Assembly: GCA_025935755.1 (NCBI GenBank)
Contig: JAICUQ010000003.1
Location: 1 to 64,000, forward strand
Reading direction: 5' to 3'
Length of the DNA stretch: 64,000 nt
Origin: Chthoniobacterales bacterium
GTDB lineage: Bacteria > Verrucomicrobiota > Verrucomicrobiia > Chthoniobacterales > UBA10450
Part shown: positions 2,650 to 58,790 of the stretch, in pieces
How positions within the stretch are numbered: the stretch's first letter is position 1
How the letters are laid out: each line of letters opens with the position of its first letter
The notes under the pieces: generated by a model
The model's database searches: none
What the model saw: the letters and a program-made list of their open reading frames with translations, nothing else
Told to the model about the DNA's origin: nothing
Position numbers and translations under genes: made by a program

Positions 2650-3359
2650 TCAATCGGAGCCCTGAGCTTTCCGTATCAATGACGCGAGGTAATGTCGGGC
2701 GCGGCCGGGCGGTGGGACGTGGACTCGGCAATCGCATTGCGGAGCGCACAACCCGCCACCGTTGTAAAGACCCAGCGTTCGCGCATAAGAGGTCAGCGGC
2801 ATGTGACCGTTGCCGGCTGGCGGGATGATCAGATTCCCGATCGAGGCATCGATCGCCGCCAGCGTTTGCGCCACACAGCTTCCATCCACGCCACTGGCAA
2901 TATTTAGTTTCGCGGCGATTTCCTGATGTGCCAGCTGAACCAAGTTATTACCACGTGGCGCTTGACGTAGAATGGATTCTAATTCCTGCCGGTTATAAGT
3001 GTGGTTGCCAAGCTGCAATTGATTCACCGGCCACTGCTCATAGTTCTTCCAATAGCCTGATCCCAAAACACAACCACTGGTCGTGGGAGCAGGAGTTGCT
3101 GTCGCAGTAGGAGTAGTAATCGCATTTGGCGTTGCTTTGGTGACACGGTAGGCGTTGCGGTTGCCGACACAGTGGGTGTTGCGGTAGCTGTAGGTGTTGC
3201 CGTAGGCGTAGCAGTTGCGGTGGGAGTCGCCGTCCGAGTTACAATGGGATTCGGTGTTGGGCTTGGCTCCGTACATGCTGGAAAGCTGGCTTTAACACTC
3301 GTTAGCGAGCCGGTCCCTACGGAATAGCCACCCCCGGGCAAAACGATCGCTTCCGCTGT
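2650..3359 (-). pseudogene. Frameshifted, 5'-truncated GYWKNH-domain protein
   Basis: The remnant is split over two frames. The 5' part (from about 3341) reads a short Ser/Gly segment and a Thr-Pro-Ala linker, then goes out of frame near 3138-3145. From there another frame continues the linker and a complete GYWKNYEQWPV domain to the stop at 2650, closely matching the C-terminus of the 777-aa protein. There is no signal peptide, and the 5' end abuts a hairpin repeat, so the N-terminal half is missing. A sequencing error in the repetitive linker could explain the frameshift but not the missing export signal. Confidence 0.65.
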
Positions 3360-3451: not shown

Positions 3452-4864
3452 TTATGGAATATTCCGAGCCAGGGTTTGTAAAGGTCTACGAAGCTCGAGC
3501 TGCGTACTCACTCTTTGGATTTGCGCTGCTTGCTCCTTCACCGTCGCCAAAAGTCCTGCCATTCCTGCTTCCAGGTTTTTCACCTTCTCCTGCTCTGCGA
3601 CAAACGCCTGGTGCTCTTTAAGGAACTCGTTAAGCAGCATTACGTTGATGGCACTGTAACGGACGGTCTCGATTTCGCCCTTCGCATTGCGGATCGCCAG
3701 GTTTGGATCCACCTCGGCTACCTCTTCAGCAATCAGCCCATAGTCGAGAACCTGGTTGCGATCGATCTCCTTCTTGTAGCGATACGTGACAGGTTTGAGA
3801 CGGTAAAGCGTTTCGCTGGCATCCTGCATCGCTTTAATGTCTTCCTTGTGCCGACGCGATGAGGTGAGATGACCAAGTAAACCGGTATTCAAATCAACAG
3901 TAACAGTGTCGGCGAAACCACCGCTTACCGACGTGGTGTTAATGTTGTGGATGTAAGTGTGATAACTCTCGTTGGGATCCCGTGCCATCTCCTGTTCTCC
4001 GATATAGACGTTGCCGGTTCCCGTTCTCAGACCATAACCGGCGCGATTGCCAATCGCCGTATTTGCCATGGCGTCAGTTTCCCCATTGTCTGCGCTCAGC
4101 GCCAACAGGCCGAAAGCGCAATTGAAACTGCCATCCACATTATACAACATCGCTCTATCGCCGACTGCCGTGTTGCCATCACCGCCCAGGCCGGTGCCCC
4201 ACTCTGCACCCGTATAACAAAGCGCCCGATAGCCCACGGCCGTATTGGCGCCTTGGAGTTCGTAGGAAGCGCCGGTTTTATAAAACAGAGCTACGGCGCC
4301 CACAGCCACGTTGCCACTGCCAGTGCTGTTGTTCTGAAGGGCAGCATCCCCCATCGCCGTATTTTCCATGCCAATGGTATTGCCGGAGAGCGCGTCACCG
4401 CCAAAGGCGATGTTGCCCCAGCCGGTGGTGTTATCTTGCAGCGCGCTAGCGCCCATGGCCACGTTGTATGAACCGGTGGTGTTGCTCCAAAGCGCGCTCT
4501 CCCCAAACGCATTGTTGGCCGATCCAGTCGTGTTGTTCTGGAGTGAATACGCGCCTACTGCGCTATTGCGCCATCCAGCCATGTTCGAAGAAAGCGCGTA
4601 ACTACCATTGGCGATATTGTAGCTGCCTGACGTGTTCGCCGACAGTGCGTGCCAACCGTGAGCAGTATTGTGCTGTCCGGTCGTGTTGATATTGAGCGCG
4701 TCTACGTTCTCGGCCGCGCTGTTGTTATTTCCACGATCTTCGCCGAGTCGCGGGGTTGCGGTCGGTACAGGCGTGGGGGTTGGTACCGGCCTTGCCAAAG
4801 CAGTCGATAAAACAGCAAAGCAGGCAACTGCGAGCAGAACCAACGTGATCTTTTGATTTTTCAT
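3452..4864 (-). CDS. Secreted YadA-head-like protein with C-terminal S74 chaperone domain
   Basis: The 470-aa product has a signal peptide (1-24) and a short PTPTPVPTATP linker. Residues about 45-320 carry degenerate repeats of 14-16 residues of the NTALGxxAL/NTTGSxNTA type, as in trimeric adhesin heads. From about 334, SSRRHKEDIKAM followed by LxPVTYRYK, DYGLIAEEVAEV and NAMLLNEFLKEH-like motifs identify an intramolecular chaperone of endosialidase (Peptidase_S74), with a terminal coiled coil. In characterised S74 proteins the domain trimerises and cleaves itself off before the first Ser; that is expected here but not shown. The paralogue is at 55627-56745. It has a family 1 leader. Confidence 0.88.
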   Translation of the reverse strand: MKNQKITLVLLAVACFAVLSTALARPVPTPTPVPTATPRLGEDRGNNNSAAENVDALNINTTGQHNTAHGWHALSANTSGSYNIANGSYALSSNMAGWRNSAVGAYSLQNNTTGSANNAFGESALWSNTTGSYNVAMGASALQDNTTGWGNIAFGGDALSGNTIGMENTAMGDAALQNNSTGSGNVAVGAVALFYKTGASYELQGANTAVGYRALCYTGAEWGTGLGGDGNTAVGDRAMLYNVDGSFNCAFGLLALSADNGETDAMANTAIGNRAGYGLRTGTGNVYIGEQEMARDPNESYHTYIHNINTTSVSGGFADTVTVDLNTGLLGHLTSSRRHKEDIKAMQDASETLYRLKPVTYRYKKEIDRNQVLDYGLIAEEVAEVDPNLAIRNAKGEIETVRYSAINVMLLNEFLKEHQAFVAEQEKVKNLEAGMAGLLATVKEQAAQIQRVSTQLELRRPLQTLARNIP

Positions 4865-5254: not shown

Positions 5255-8200
5255 TCAGCGATTCTTCGTCCTCACCTTGATGACGTTCGAATTTGGGCTG
5301 GTCCCATTCGTATTGTATGCCCGGACCCGATAGTAATAGAACGTACTTGGATTAAGTCCCAACACATCGCGACTCGTAGCATTTCCGACGTCCAGGTTTT
5401 GGTATCCCGGTATATAACTGTTGAACACCGAGCTCGTGGACACGTCTAGCCGGTAACCCGTCGCTTCGCTCACACTGCTCCAGTTCGCAGTGAAGCGAAA
5501 CGTGTTGATATTTGTTGGTTTCAGCGCCGTTGGCGCAGCTGGGACTTCCGTCGGTGTCGCGGTCGGCGTAACGGTAGCGGTCGCGGTTGGAGTCGGGGTT
5601 GCAGTAGCCGTTGGCGTTGCTGTCGCAGCAGGGGTTGCGGTTGGGGTCGGTGTCGGTGTCCCTCCGCAGGGAAGCAGCCACCTGCCTGCGTTCACTATCA
5701 GTTTCCCCCAATCGCCGCTGTGACTAGTATTACCAAGATAGGCGGTGATACCCACCGTGGTGTGCCCACCGCTGACCGGCCGGTACCCGACCAATGCATA
5801 ACCACCCGGAAGAGCCGCCGCCACACCCGTGGCGCCCGCGGCAAGTGTTACCACCTGGACAAAGCTGCAGTTGAGGCTGGTAACACCAGCCATCAACGGG
5901 TGCTCCGGATGAAGGATGTAGCTTGTCAGTTCGGTAGCGTCTCCCTCCGTCGAGTAGTTATACGGGTTGTAGTTGCCGGTTAGCCATCGGCCGTTGATTG
6001 AGCCGCGAGGCGTCGGCCCGTAAAAGCTCATCGCACATTGGACCACTACACCACCGCCATCCGCATAGTCGGCCAGGTTATCGCCAAGCACAGTGCCATC
6101 AGCAAATGAGCCGTTGTTAAACGGGATCACAATGTCGTATTGCTGCAGTTGTGCCAGAGTGGGAGTGCTCAGACGCGCATCGAACAAGTCCACACTGCTA
6201 ACGTCTCGGTCGGCCAGTATTTCGTCGCGCAACTCGGCTGGCTGCCGCCCATTAAAATCAGCATAAGCGATGAGGACCCGGAACTGACACGAAGCCGGTG
6301 TGGGGGTCGGCGTGGCTGTCGCCGTGGGCGTAGGCGTGACGGTAGCTGTTGCCGTTGGAGTGGCAGTCGCTGTTGCGGTAGCGGTAGCCGTGGCTGTCGC
6401 GGTGGATGTAGGCGTGACGGTAGCTGTTGCCGTTGGAGTGGCAATCGCTGTTGCGGTAGCGGTAGCCGTGGCTGTCGCGGTGGGCGTCGCCGTCGGCGTA
6501 GGGATTGCGCAGGGTGCCGTTCCGATGACCAACGCACCCGGAGAACGCCCTACCGCGAATCTGGCAACGACTGTGTTACTGAACGTGTCAATGACAGAGG
6601 CAGTGTTGCTGTTGCCATTGCTCACGTAGGCGCTGACGCCATCTGGTGTCACCGCCACACCACCGGTTCCGCTGAACGGAACCATGTTCACTGTAGCTAC
6701 CACAGTGTTGCTGAACGTGTCGATGACCGACACGGCGTCGACGAACCTGTTCACATAGGCGCGGGTGCCGTCTGGAGTGATCGCCACCTCGGTGGCACCG
6801 TAAAGTTCCTGCCCGAAGGTAGCTACAACGTTGTTGGTGACTGTCTCGATGACAGAGACATAGTGGGGGTTAAAATTGCCGCCACCTGCCACATAGACGA
6901 GATTGCCGTCCGGCGTCACTGCCACACCGTTGGCGCCTGTATCGACTTCTACTGTGGTTATCAATCCTCCGTTGGAAGCGTCAATGATAGAGAGCTGCCT
7001 GTTGTCCCTGCCTTGATTAACCACATAGACGCGGGTGCCGTCCGGCTTCACCGCCAGGCCGTAGACTGCACTATAGGCGCCAATGTCCCAGGTGGCTACC
7101 AGTGTGTTGTTGAACGTGTCGATGACGGAGAGGGAGTTGTAGTTAGTTACATAAAGACGCGTGCCGTCCGGACTCACTGCGAGGTTACCGGGTTGGCTCG
7201 CAAGTGTTATCGTGTCCACCACCGCATTGGTCGAGGTGTCGATCACCAGGACGTTGTAGTGGATGAAATCGACGCTCGCATGGCTAACATACAGACGCGT
7301 GCTGTCCGTGTTTAGCGCCAGGTCCTCGGGGGTGCTGCCAACCGGAACTCTTGTTACCAGAGTGTTATTGGCGGTGTCGATCACCGAGACATCGTTATCG
7401 TTCCTGTTGGCAACATAGGCGAGAACCATAGGGCATTGGTGCGTTGCACCGACAAAGTTCCCCATCGCAACAGGAGAAGCATTAACATTTATTGTGTTCA
7501 CGACTGCGTTAGAGCCGGTGTTGATGACGGAGAGAGTGTTGCTGCCCTGGTTGGCCACATAAGCGCGAGTCCCGTCAGGATTCAGTGCCACGCCGGTCGG
7601 GCTGTCGTTGACCGCAACCGCGGCTATCACCGCGTTCGTGGAGGTGTCGATCACCGACACATTGTTGCTGAGTTGATTCGCGACATAGACACGAGTGCCG
7701 TCCGGATTTACTGCCACACCGGTGGGACTCTCGTTGACGGTCACCGTAGCTATCACTGCATTAATTGATGTGTCGATGACGGAGACAGTGTTGCTCCCTT
7801 CGTTGGCCACATAGGCGCGGGTGCCGTCCGCCTTCAGCGCCACGCCATACGGATGTGAGCCAACCGCCACCGTCGTCACGACCGTATTGCTGGCGGTGTC
7901 GATTACCGAGACATTGTTACTGCCTTGATTAGTCACATAGGCGCGGCTGCCATTTGGGGTGAGTGCCACGTTAATCGGATTTAAGCCAACCGTTGTTGTG
8001 GCGATTACGGTGTTATTGGAGGTATCAATCACAGAGACATTGCCGCTATCGAAGTTAGTCACATAGGTACGCGTATTGTCCGGTTTCACCGCGACGCCGC
8101 GCGGACTGCTCCCGACCGCCACCGTTGCTATTACTGTATTGCTGGCGGTGTCGATTACCGAGACATCATTACTGCCGGAGTTGATTACGTAGGCGCGGGT

Positions 8201-55626: not shown

Positions 55627-56745
55627 CTATTTGCGGCGCGGTCCGATTTTTATTTCCGTTTGTGCGCTCACCTTCTTCAAGCCCGCGATAAGCTCCGCAA
55701 CTTGTTTCTCCAGTTGCTCGACTTTGCGATGTTCTTTCAGAAATTCGTTAAGCAACATGGCGTTTACTTGATCGTAGCGGACGCTGTACGGCTTTCCTTC
55801 TTTGTCGCGCACAATCAGGTCAGGATTCACCTTTTCCACCTCCTCGGCGATCAAGCCCAGTTGCTGAATGCCTGTCGAATCGATCTCCTTGTTATAGCGG
55901 AAGGTAACCGGTGTAAGTGCAAAGAGCGCCTCGCTCGCCTCGCCCATGGGTTTGATTTGGTTTTTGTAGCGGGCCGAGGAAGTCATCGTTCCGAGTCTTC
56001 CGTCTGAATTGACGAAGACTCCAACACCACTGGCAGAAGTCGAGCCGAATATATTTCCGATATAGCAGCTGTCGTCCACGTTTGCACCGGACACGCCCGC
56101 GCCGATGCAGATAACGTTACTGGCCGTGGTGACATTTCCGCCTGCTCCGGCGCCCAAGGCGGTGTTGTCATTGCCAGTGCTGTCGCGGAGCGCGGTAAAA
56201 CCGTTGGCCGTGTTGCGGCTGCCGGTGGTGCTTTCGAGCGCTGCAGCGCCAGTAGCAGTGTTGGCTTCGCCGTCGGTCTGGCTTGCGAGCGCGCTTTCAC
56301 CAATGGCCGTGCTCCCCCCGCGTCCGGTTTGGCTTGCGAGCGCTTGATAACCGACAGCGGTGCTGCCCCCGCCGAAGGTGTTGCTGGAGAGCGCGCCAAC
56401 ACCTACGGCTGTGTTGGTAGGCCCCGTGGTGTTGAGCAAAAGCGCGGCAGCGCCGACGGCCGTATTGGAATCCCCCTTGTTGAGAAGCAACGCTACCGCG
56501 CCGAGAGCGGTGTTGAAGCTGCCACTGGTATTGAAAAAGAGAGAGCGCCAACCGACGCCCGTGTTTCCAGCACCGGTGGTGAGGGAATTGAGCGCACCGC
56601 ATCCTTCCGCCGTCGTAAACCCGGGATAGCATCCGTCCGGCGCGGGAACAACTGCGAGTGCTGCGGGCGAAAGCCCAAAGTACGCAAACAGAAGAGCGGC
56701 GAGCAATACTGGAGTTGCTTTTTGGATCTGAATGAATGGATTCAT
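55627..56745 (-). CDS. Secreted YadA-head-like protein with S74 chaperone domain, second copy
   Basis: The 372-aa product, started at 56745 for its signal peptide (MNPFIQIQKATPVLLAALLF), has head-like repeats (about 50-225: NTALGAVALLLN, NTAVGAAAL, GGSTAIGESALASQT) and a C-terminal S74 domain from about 255 (TSSARYKNQIKPMGEASEAL, LTPVTFRYNKEIDSTG, QLGLIAEEVEKVNPDL) with a coiled-coil tail. It is paralogous to 3452-4864 but has a different upstream leader (family 2). Confidence 0.88.
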   Translation of the reverse strand: MNPFIQIQKATPVLLAALLFAYFGLSPAALAVVPAPDGCYPGFTTAEGCGALNSLTTGAGNTGVGWRSLFFNTSGSFNTALGAVALLLNKGDSNTAVGAAALLLNTTGPTNTAVGVGALSSNTFGGGSTAVGYQALASQTGRGGSTAIGESALASQTDGEANTATGAAALESTTGSRNTANGFTALRDSTGNDNTALGAGAGGNVTTASNVICIGAGVSGANVDDSCYIGNIFGSTSASGVGVFVNSDGRLGTMTSSARYKNQIKPMGEASEALFALTPVTFRYNKEIDSTGIQQLGLIAEEVEKVNPDLIVRDKEGKPYSVRYDQVNAMLLNEFLKEHRKVEQLEKQVAELIAGLKKVSAQTEIKIGPRRK

Positions 56746-56890
56746 GTGCTTCCTTTCTTTCCCCGCCAACGTTGGTTCTGTTGGTCGCGGGTCCGGAGAG
56801 GCAAAGAACCTGGCGGGGAAAGGTCCTCCGCCCTGATTCAGATCCGCTTTAGCGACGCCGAGTTTGGAAAAATCTCGCCAACCGGTCAAC
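56746..56890 (-). promoter_or_regulatory. Shared leader, family 2, copy E
   Basis: On the minus strand: TTGACCGG, AAACTCGGCGTCGCTAAAG, GGAGGACCTTTCC, CCAGGTTCT and CCGGACCCGC before the start codon. The same blocks in the same order occur at 58641-58790 upstream of the NHL propeller gene. It resembles a structured UTR more than a simple promoter. Confidence 0.55.
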
Positions 56891-56972
56891 GCAAATCGGA
56901 GTTCGACCAGTGGAAGATCGTTGTCCCAATTTTTGTCGCGACGAACTAATCGGTGCTACGGTGAGCACACTT

Positions 56973-57575
56973 ATGGATCGCGTCATCAACATCTGGTCCG
57001 ACGTTATCTGACCGTTTTGTTATCTCGGCTCGGTCTGGGCCGAAGCGGCGGCGAAACAGCTCAAGGCTGGTCTGCGTTGGCTTCCATTTGAAATTCATCC
57101 TGAGACGCCGCCCGAAGGAGCACCGAAACCCTTTCCACCCGAGGAGTGGCGTAACGTTCGGGCGCGGCTTGAACGTCTGGCTGCTGAAGTGGAACTTCCG
57201 ATTGATCCACCGAAGCGTAACGTGAACTCGCGGCTCGCGCTCGAGACGGCCGAACTGGTGCGCGCGAAAAAGGGCGATCACGCAGCCGGCGTGTTTCATC
57301 ACGAGGTTTCGCGTGCTTTCTTCACCAGGCATGCGGACATCTCAAAAACCAAGATCATTATGCCGATCGCTCAAAGCTTCGGCATCGCAGCTCCCGAGGT
57401 AGAAGCCGCCTGGAACGAGCATCGCTTTTCTCCCGCCGTTGATATGTTTATGGAACAGGGCTACATGGCCGGCGTCACAGGCGTCCCGGCGATGGCGTGG
57501 CCGAATGCGCGCGCGATCATTGGGATGATGCCGGCAGCTGATCTCGTGCGTCTACTTCGAAGCGAGACACCCTGA
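56973..57575 (+). CDS. DsbA/FrnE-family oxidoreductase, candidate selenoprotein (in-frame TGA)
   Basis: The 200-aa product reads MDRVINIWSDVI-U-PFCYLGS, where U is a TGA at 57009-57011 (residue 13). In DsbA/FrnE proteins this position is the reactive Cys of a CPWC/CPFC motif. The frame then continues with LRWLPFEIHPETPPEG, helical DsbA insert and the cis-Pro GVTGVPAMAWP to a normal end. A SECIS-like hairpin starts 13 nt after the TGA. GGTGAG lies 7 bp before the ATG; an in-frame GTG is at 56961. Family members are thiol-disulfide oxidoreductases or isomerases, cytoplasmic here (no signal). The alternative is a nonsense-mutated gene. Confidence 0.8.
57025..57043 (+). promoter_or_regulatory. 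SECIS-like hairpin in the coding frame
   Basis: Seven base pairs (TCGGCTC with GGGCCGA, one U-G) close a GGUCU loop at 57032-57036. Twenty bases separate the TGA from the loop G; the E. coli fdhF SECIS has the same GGUCU loop about 18 bases after its UGA. The loop is the SelB contact in bacteria. Confidence 0.75.
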
Positions 57576-57632
57576 GCCTAACGAGTAAAGGGTATTGCGC
57601 TGCTTCCCATCGGCCACGGGTTTGATCCCGCC

Positions 57633-58640
57633 TTATTTCGCCGCGTGAAGATGCGATTGTTTGGAGAGCAGCTTGAGATCGCTCGCCATAGATCCTGGCT
57701 CAATCGCCAAGTACTCGGGACCGCTGTTTTCTTGTACGCCAATGTCCGAGGCGAAAACAGTCGGTTCGCCCCGGTGTGAAAATTTTAAAATATCGCCGCT
57801 GGCAGATGGAGGCATCTCGCTTACGAAGAGTTTCCCTGCGCCGTCGAAGATCAGGTCGCGCGGATTAGGCAGGCCCGACACAAAAGTTCTTTTAAGCCCC
57901 TTCGCAGTAAACTTAAGAATTGCGTCGGCCGTGTTGGGGTACATCGCAGTAGATACAAAAAGATTTCCCGAAGGATCAAAGGCCAGTCCGAAAGGGCCAG
58001 TCTCGGGTTTGGCGAAAGCTTCCGGCCCCACGAATACAGTTCGTTCGCCGCCCGGGCTAAATTTGTAAATCGTTTGCCCCGTGACATCGGCGGCAAAGAG
58101 GTTACCGGCTCGATCAAACGCGAGATCGAACCCGTGACCGGGAACAAATCCGAACGATCCGCGCCCACCGTTCGGCGTAATTTTGAAAATGATGGAAACA
58201 TCGTTAGACGGTGAAATCGCCATCACATACACGTTCTCCAAGCAGTCGATCGCCAGGCCTTCAGCAAAAAAGGAATCTGGTATCGTCGCGAAGGTACTCT
58301 GCCTGCCGTCCGGCATGATTTTCACAATCGTGGGATGACACCAGGAATTTTCCTCGCAGAAATTTGTCGCCACAAAAAGGTTGCCGACGTTGTCAAAAGC
58401 CAACCCGCGAGGTTGATTAAGGCCGTACGCTAACATGGTTTGCGTCCCGTCGGGAGCATACTGGTAGATGGCTCCGGCCCCGTTTCCGGGCCCGCCATTA
58501 ATCGAAGCGAATAGATCACCCGGCGCGCCGTTAACAGTGCCCCCCGAGATTGCCGTAATCAAAACTGCGAACGCACTCGAAACAACTATCCCTGGCAGCC
58601 CGACGTTTTTTGCCCTTCTCATGTTTTTCACTGAATTCAT
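57633..58640 (-). CDS. Secreted NHL/SMP-30-like beta-propeller protein
   Basis: The 335-aa product, started at 58640, has a signal peptide and about six propeller blades with repeated LAFDxxGNLFVA and KFxPxGxRTVF motifs. NHL-type propellers bind protein or carbohydrate partners; SMP-30-like enzymes need acidic metal ligands that I cannot confirm here. A plausible envelope protein, controlled via the family 2 leader. Confidence 0.85.
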   Translation of the reverse strand: MNSVKNMRRAKNVGLPGIVVSSAFAVLITAISGGTVNGAPGDLFASINGGPGNGAGAIYQYAPDGTQTMLAYGLNQPRGLAFDNVGNLFVATNFCEENSWCHPTIVKIMPDGRQSTFATIPDSFFAEGLAIDCLENVYVMAISPSNDVSIIFKITPNGGRGSFGFVPGHGFDLAFDRAGNLFAADVTGQTIYKFSPGGERTVFVGPEAFAKPETGPFGLAFDPSGNLFVSTAMYPNTADAILKFTAKGLKRTFVSGLPNPRDLIFDGAGKLFVSEMPPSASGDILKFSHRGEPTVFASDIGVQENSGPEYLAIEPGSMASDLKLLSKQSHLHAAK

Positions 58641-58790
58641 CGTTCTCCTGTTTCCCCACGTCACTGGATTTCACAAATGCGGGTCCGGGTAAGACGAGAA
58701 CCTGGCAGTGAGAAAGGTCCTCCATCTGATCCAAAGCCGTTTAACAACGCCGAGTTTGAGAATATTGAGTGAATCGGTCAATGCAATTCA
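58641..58790 (-). promoter_or_regulatory. Shared leader, family 2, copy F
   Basis: On the minus strand: TTGACCGA, AAACTCGGCGTTGTTAAACG, GGAGGACCTTTC, CCAGGTTCT and CCGGACCCGC, then AGGAGAACG and ATG. It matches copy E block for block; the Shine-Dalgarno AGGAG is clear. Confidence 0.55.

Follow-up and report, generated by a model that had tools for sequence, protein, structure and literature searches.

Why do two genes that encode unrelated proteins carry nearly the same leader? The question arises from a window of 64,000 nt (the whole stretch of DNA analysed) from a Chthoniobacterales bacterium, in which an earlier note had described shared blocks in front of an S74 gene and an NHL gene. In a blastn-type search of the own 3.67-Mb genome, the S74 and NHL leaders were 73% identical over 107 nt (E = 3.7e-9), and the S74 leader was the sole significant other match of the NHL leader. 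A repeat search paired the two as well, with the offset staying at 1892-1894 nt throughout. The four shared strings that had been reported were all present in both leaders, on the minus strand, colinear and 5′ of each ATG; the spans proposed for the leaders (56746-56890 and 58641-58790) run from a −35-like box to just 5′ of the ATG. That the proteins behind them are unrelated was also borne out: the S74 and NHL proteins gave no match to each other (BLASTP E = 6.7), one being a PF13884 S74 protein and the other a beta-propeller. One of the shared blocks, AAACTCGGCGT, is probably the promoter −10 region with the transcription start and not part of the RNA structure. A string search for GGAGGACCTTTC with one mismatch returned 12 places besides the two leaders, none of which resembled a further leader on reading. 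The features of the two loci are as follows.

55627..56745 (-): S74 gene, surface protein of 372 aa, ATG at 56745 (Pfam PF13884, 3.9e-10)
56749..56756 (-): S74 leader, Shine-Dalgarno-like AAAGGAAG (sequence)
56757..56769 (-): S74 leader, pseudoknot 3′ strand UUGGCGGGGAAAG (strand-swap tests)
56789..56795 (-): S74 leader, P1 3′ strand CGGACCC (covarying helix)
56800..56810 (-): S74 leader, P2 3′ strand GGUUCUUUGCC (covarying helix)
56811..56821 (-): S74 leader, P2 loop = pseudoknot 5′ strand UUUCCCCGCCA (swap tests; own duplex −24.9 kcal/mol)
56822..56832 (-): S74 leader, P2 5′ strand GGCGGAGGACC (covarying helix)
56839..56845 (-): S74 leader, P1 5′ strand GGAUCUG (covarying helix)
56861..56866 (-): S74 gene, putative weak −10-like CAAACT, spacer 17 (sequence and consensus)
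56884..56889 (-): S74 gene, −35-like box TTGACC of a putative promoter (sequence)
57633..58640 (-): NHL/beta-propeller exported-protein gene, 335 aa, ATG at 58640 (Pfam SBBP 3.3e-8, NHL 4.4e-4)
58643..58650 (-): NHL leader, Shine-Dalgarno-like CAGGAGAA (sequence)
58651..58659 (-): NHL leader, pseudoknot 3′ strand GUGGGGAAA (pairs with UUUCUCAC)
58681..58687 (-): NHL leader, P1 3′ strand CGGACCC (alignment to covarying helix)
58693..58702 (-): NHL leader, P2 3′ strand GGUUCUCGUC (alignment to covarying helix)
58708..58715 (-): NHL leader, pseudoknot 5′ strand UUUCUCAC (duplex with GUGGGGAAA −9.4 kcal/mol)
58716..58726 (-): NHL leader, P2 5′ strand GAUGGAGGACC (alignment to covarying helix)
58732..58738 (-): NHL leader, P1 5′ strand GGCUUUG (alignment to covarying helix)
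58753..58758 (-): NHL gene, putative weak −10-like CAAACT, spacer 17
58776..58781 (-): NHL gene, putative −35-like box TTGACC

When 83 genomes of the family were searched in blastn fashion, good matches were numerous, with several per genome, and almost all of them came from the own genus. From 49 loci fetched from the family, an iterated profile search (nhmmer) collected 60 copies; 54 passed score and end filters and 42 were aligned (genus set), the other 12 being near-duplicates or, on inspection, copies whose 3′ half had diverged or was gone. A first covariance model, R1, was built from P1 and P2 of this set. R1 found 10 copies in the own genome (E < 1e-3); across the order, 51 of 213 genomes had a match at E ≤ 0.05. 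The earlier observation is thus real and larger than first described, the two leaders of the window being 2 of about 10 copies in their own genome. A diverse set comprised the 115 matches with E ≤ 1e-5, from 99 sources, out of 145 matches in 130 sources, and a second model, R2, was built on these 115 members.

The leader is an RNA in which P1, conserved, forms the lower helix and P2 the upper one; base pairing between the P2 loop and a G-rich strand further downstream adds an H-type pseudoknot. As read from the alignment, P1 is GGAUCUG/CGGACCC and P2 is GGCGGAGGAC/GUUCUUCGCC, while the P2 loop UUUCCCCGCUA pairs with AGCGGGGAAA 5′ of the start site. The complementarity of GGTTC and GGACC that had first hinted at a structure falls at the top of P2, where GGACC (the end of GGAGGACC) pairs with GGTTC. 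The pseudoknot, missed by the earlier note, is the strongest feature of the leader; it is near-perfect in the S74 copy and weaker in the NHL copy, where it lies below most copies.

Covariation was evident in both sets. In a structure-free MAFFT alignment of the genus set (42 rows), 90.8% of the cells were paired, compared with 44-64% when the strands were slid, and two-sided changes occurred at 12 of 24 pairs, a count reached by 1 of 500 shuffles. For the diverse set (115 rows) the corresponding values were 85.6% and 21 of 23 pairs, with 294 two-sided cells versus 112 in shuffled alignments (0/500 shuffles). Since the 115-row alignment was fitted to P1 and P2 and the pseudoknot is absent from the covariance model, the support for the pseudoknot is independent. 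Its columns were 78.9% paired in this alignment, a value lowered by some subfamilies that are shifted by one column. When the strands of loop/downstream duplexes were swapped between rows (113 of the 115 rows, two fragments being dropped), the native mean was −14.85 kcal/mol versus −11.78 kcal/mol for swapped duplexes (0/5000). Clustering at 72% identity gave 43 clusters from 113 rows (40 from 115 rows); among the 43 representatives (<72% identical), the swap test gave 0/5000 for all three, pseudoknot, P2 and P1. Swaps within clusters (>72% identity) gave 2/5000 for the pseudoknot, 12/5000 for P1 and a weaker 229/5000 for P2.

In a survey of all 66 pairings of leader segments among the 43 representatives, pseudoknot, P2 and P1 ranked first in covariation, and beyond these three helices no alternative pairing covaried clearly. 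The P2 3′ strand plus J21 against the Shine-Dalgarno (SD) region was not significant in the representatives (113/3000), J12 or the linker against the coding start displayed no covariation, and the P2b-LINK pairing (4/2000) was borderline among 66 tests. Whole helices were exchanged in concert in the diverse set, e.g. P2 as GACAAAGGAC/GUUCUUUGUC. Pseudoknot strands that are wholly different and still paired include CCCCGCUA/UAGCGGGG, CCCGGUA/ACCGGG and CUUCUCCCGAC/AUCGGGGGAA, as well as the fully replaced CUUUUCCAGGCA/CGCCUGGAAAA and UUUAUCCUGGGG/CCCCGGGGUAAA. P2 and the pseudoknot vary by covariation, unlike the sequence-conserved core: P1 UCUG/CAGA is nearly invariant, and A35, C39, U98 and U99 of the internal loop (AAUC/UU) and A161-A162 of the linker are conserved and unpaired. 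Single-sequence folding of the two leaders gave stabilities no higher than those of shuffles (z = −0.40 and 0.05), nested folding being blind to pseudoknots, and RNAalifold on the genus set recovered P1 and P2 incompletely and did not detect the pseudoknot. The larger alignments lend strong support to the proposed structured 5′ UTR; the outcome named in advance as counting against it, a lack of covarying stems, did not occur, as P1 and P2 covary.

The structure lies at a regular distance from the start codon. Distances were taken from the 105 of the 115 rows whose AUG falls in the aligned column: the median span from the start of P1 to AUG is 103 nt (range 92-118), and that from the end of the pseudoknot core to AUG is 18 nt (range 12-23). 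Of these 105 copies, 53 have no SD-like motif in the stretch from knot to AUG; where such a motif is found, it lies 3′ of the knot core, outside the pseudoknot. Simple SD sequestration is therefore not general, and a general gating of ribosome docking by the knot is more likely than the masking of an SD. Upstream, 99 of 114 leaders carry a TTGACA-like box (at least 5 of 6 positions), most commonly 44 nt 5′ of P1, and the consensus has a weak CAAACT-like −10 at a spacing of 17-18 nt from it. A strict sigma-70 scan reported no promoter, and neither leader contains a terminator-like site. The promoter-like box 5′ of P1 together with the lack of a terminator suggests that transcription probably sets in shortly 5′ of P1 and that the RNA works at the level of translation.

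R2 detected at least 203 copies (E ≤ 1e-3) in 51 of the 213 genomes of the order, with 1 to at least 15 per genome. By rank, these were 31 of 35 genomes of the own genus, 51 of 83 of the family and 7 of the family's 14 genera; none of the 130 genomes from other families of the order had a match. A sample of 387 genomes of the phylum (E ≤ 0.01) added just four weak places outside the family, in three genomes, none of them convincing: their E-values of 8e-4 to 9e-3 are about the chance expectation, and L239 alone has a partial P1/P2. The covariance search in Verrucomicrobiota that had been suggested thus brought further copies to light, in one family and not across the phylum. Named carriers are the soil Verrucomicrobia MAGs AV16, AV37, AV42, AV94, AV95, AV125 and AV_138. 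Viral contigs contained no exact match to a 22-base string, which is a narrow test.

Two loci deserve separate mention. Contig VBKE01000269 (L232), filed as Deltaproteobacteria DP_1, holds two exact copies of the leader core (441-462 and 3095-3116); it comes from the same soil sampling series and is probably mis-binned, or else reflects transfer. L054 has three adjoining promoter-plus-leader copies (2204-2337, 4449-4576 and 5944-6077) with three dissimilar exported proteins downstream, and the leader has possibly spread there through local duplication.

What the downstream genes share is export. Of the 145 matches, 134 had an ORF, 123 had it at the expected place, and 116 distinct usable proteins remained. 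A crude hydrophobic N-terminal export signal was present in 113 of the 116, compared with 35 of the 82 ORFs of these loci that served as controls. Their mature parts fell into 23 groups at 1e-4 and 27 at 1e-10, which include S74 surface proteins, beta-propellers, lipoproteins and others. Pfam domains among the 116 were S74 (40), Kelch (5), BclA_C (3) and single cases such as arylsulfotransferase, PD40 and Fn3-associated. The own genome has 30 S74-domain matches, and about seven of those loci carry the leader (some loci overlap); the leader therefore marks a subset and not the S74 family. It is very improbable that the leaders have no RNA function and are merely a promoter and signal-peptide cassette copied by gene duplication. 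Nearly all genes do have alike N-termini (MNPLIQLKK, MYSLIQLKT, MKTKTSL) and tandem paralogues with copies occur (L054, L189, L190), but a cassette accounts neither for compensatory changes in three helices across leaders less than 72% identical nor for mature proteins in 23 groups without detectable similarity.

Further observations concern these genes. S74 beta-roll proteins are strongly expanded in the own genome (30 places; window 3698-3862 (-)), mostly behind leaders unrelated to this one; a set on contig C160, for example, has its own common upstream sequence. Most of L147, L177, L179, L181, L182, L190, L195-L203, L206-L208, L219, L220 and L222 belong to a subfamily with an unusually long N-terminal signal region (MYSLIQLKTLVSCGRDPARSLPLRRGFLLIPL...), with a purine-rich AAAGAGAAAGAACA before AUG in place of a Shine-Dalgarno. 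Between the two leader genes of the window, 56973-57572 (+) is a DsbA-like thioredoxin gene (PF01323, 93 bits if read through) in whose reading frame a TGA takes the exact place of the first Cys in a CPFC-type motif (DVI-TGA-PFC). The own genome has a tRNA-Sec (69.2 bits, above cut-off), and a hairpin is possible just 3′ of the TGA (z = −1.43); judged from the sequence, this gene likely encodes a selenoprotein.

We propose, with a probability of roughly 0.7, that both leaders are copies of a single cis-acting RNA at the mRNA 5′ end, whose knot controls translation of an exported-protein regulon. Transcription would start just 5′ of P1, and folded P1, P2 and pseudoknot would form a compact knot bordering the ribosome docking site on its 5′ side. 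This knot would alter 30S loading in one direction or the other, most likely repressing translation. A cue, be it a small ligand or an RNA-binding protein, may act on the conserved core (P1 UCUG/CAGA, internal loop AAUC/UU, linker AA), which by its conservation would be the place where ligand or protein binds; by shifting the knot, it would co-regulate a set of surface and secreted proteins.

As to the cue, a ligand-binding riboswitch is a tentative candidate, in which the core would bind a small molecule and the pseudoknot would serve as an expression platform at the level of translation, like that of switches of the preQ1, SAM-II and SAM-V types. The compact pseudoknot adjoining the start codon, the conservation of P1, internal loop and linker AA while P2 and pseudoknot covary, and the several copies per genome are all in its favor. 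Its targets, however, lack a metabolic or transport theme: they are exported proteins of many families, and therefore no metabolite is indicated. That export and not metabolism is common to the targets, and that the structure lies at the likely mRNA 5′ end, would suit an operator for an RNA-binding protein or trans-RNA, or a stability or localisation element for exported-protein mRNAs; ompA-type 5′ stems are such stability elements. We regard this second possibility with similar reserve, as no candidate partner protein was identified and CsrA, the best-known GGA-binding regulator, had no match in the own 90%-complete genome, where controls were positive. A CsrA/Rsm target is thus unlikely for leaders of this genome.

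The best reading remains a previously uncatalogued class of cis-regulatory RNA, probably controlling translation, that defines an exported-protein regulon. Structured leaders usually precede metabolic or transport genes, which betrays their ligand; here the regulon is defined by export instead, in uncultivated soil bacteria. It is conceivable, though at less than even odds, that this riboswitch-like class couples the exported and surface proteome of an uncultivated soil Verrucomicrobia lineage to an intracellular signal, essentially without c-di-GMP machinery. If true, this would be an RNA-level 'surface regulon', with one pseudoknot controlling more than 20 groups of dissimilar exported proteins. 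Structure and alignment offer a concrete basis for probing what cue sets surface proteins, and an orphan class with about 200 copies and a pseudoknot by the ribosome site is open to direct experiment.

We compared the leader with known RNA classes using the Rfam 15 covariance models, with the gathering score as membership threshold. The whole window contained two tRNAs only. In the leader region, matches up to E ≤ 10 were four chance-level ones, all below gathering; the one to bxd_2, an lncRNA of flies (E = 0.2), overlaps the NHL leader, and Virus_CITE_6 (E = 0.11) touches the S74 start on the other strand. Eight loci with divergent members had no match at E ≤ 1. For lack of an Rfam match, we call the leader a new structured leader class, akin in its working to pseudoknot-based translational regulators, and do not claim a riboswitch. 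The available parts of the literature (including PMC11109978 and PMC2864571) contain no such motif in Verrucomicrobia, and an earlier publication, e.g. in the '224 candidate RNAs' study, is conceivable. The uncatalogued environmental motif 'Soil-1', in the portion of its description available, was found in soil sequence only and graded 'ambiguous' as RNA and 'probably not' cis-regulatory (Genome Biol 2010, PMC2864571). The leader resembles it in the soil-only finding and differs from those published gradings; in a comparison by description, identity of the two is conceivable.

Among second-messenger switches, GEMM has a regulon of the same style, its RNAs preceding genes for adhesins and exported proteins at many places in a genome. 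A c-di-GMP (GEMM-like) switch is nevertheless scarcely plausible: unlike GEMM, the leader has no Rfam match, and GGDEF (diguanylate cyclase) domains were found in 9 of the 83 family genomes, being missing from the other 74 and from the own genome, compared with leaders in 51 of 83. As GGDEF is missing from most hosts, c-di-GMP is unlikely as the cue. The diadenylate cyclase domain DAC occurs in 78 of the 83 genomes, leader-free ones included, and being nearly universal it has no bearing for or against c-di-AMP.

The closest parallels in working are the translational H-type pseudoknot riboswitches preQ1, SAM-II, SAM-V and SAM/SAH, in which a loop pairs with a downstream strand by the ribosome site. 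Like riboswitches in general, the leader is a conserved structured 5′ UTR before co-functional genes; like these four, its hairpin loop pairs with a downstream strand adjoining the ribosome site, and it has no terminator-like site. Unlike them, it matches no Rfam sequence or structure model and does not hold the SD inside its pseudoknot. Whereas preQ1/SAM-type knots lie within the SD, the leader's knot sits on a stack of P1, internal loop and P2, ends about 18 nt before AUG and, unlike those switches, serves exported proteins.
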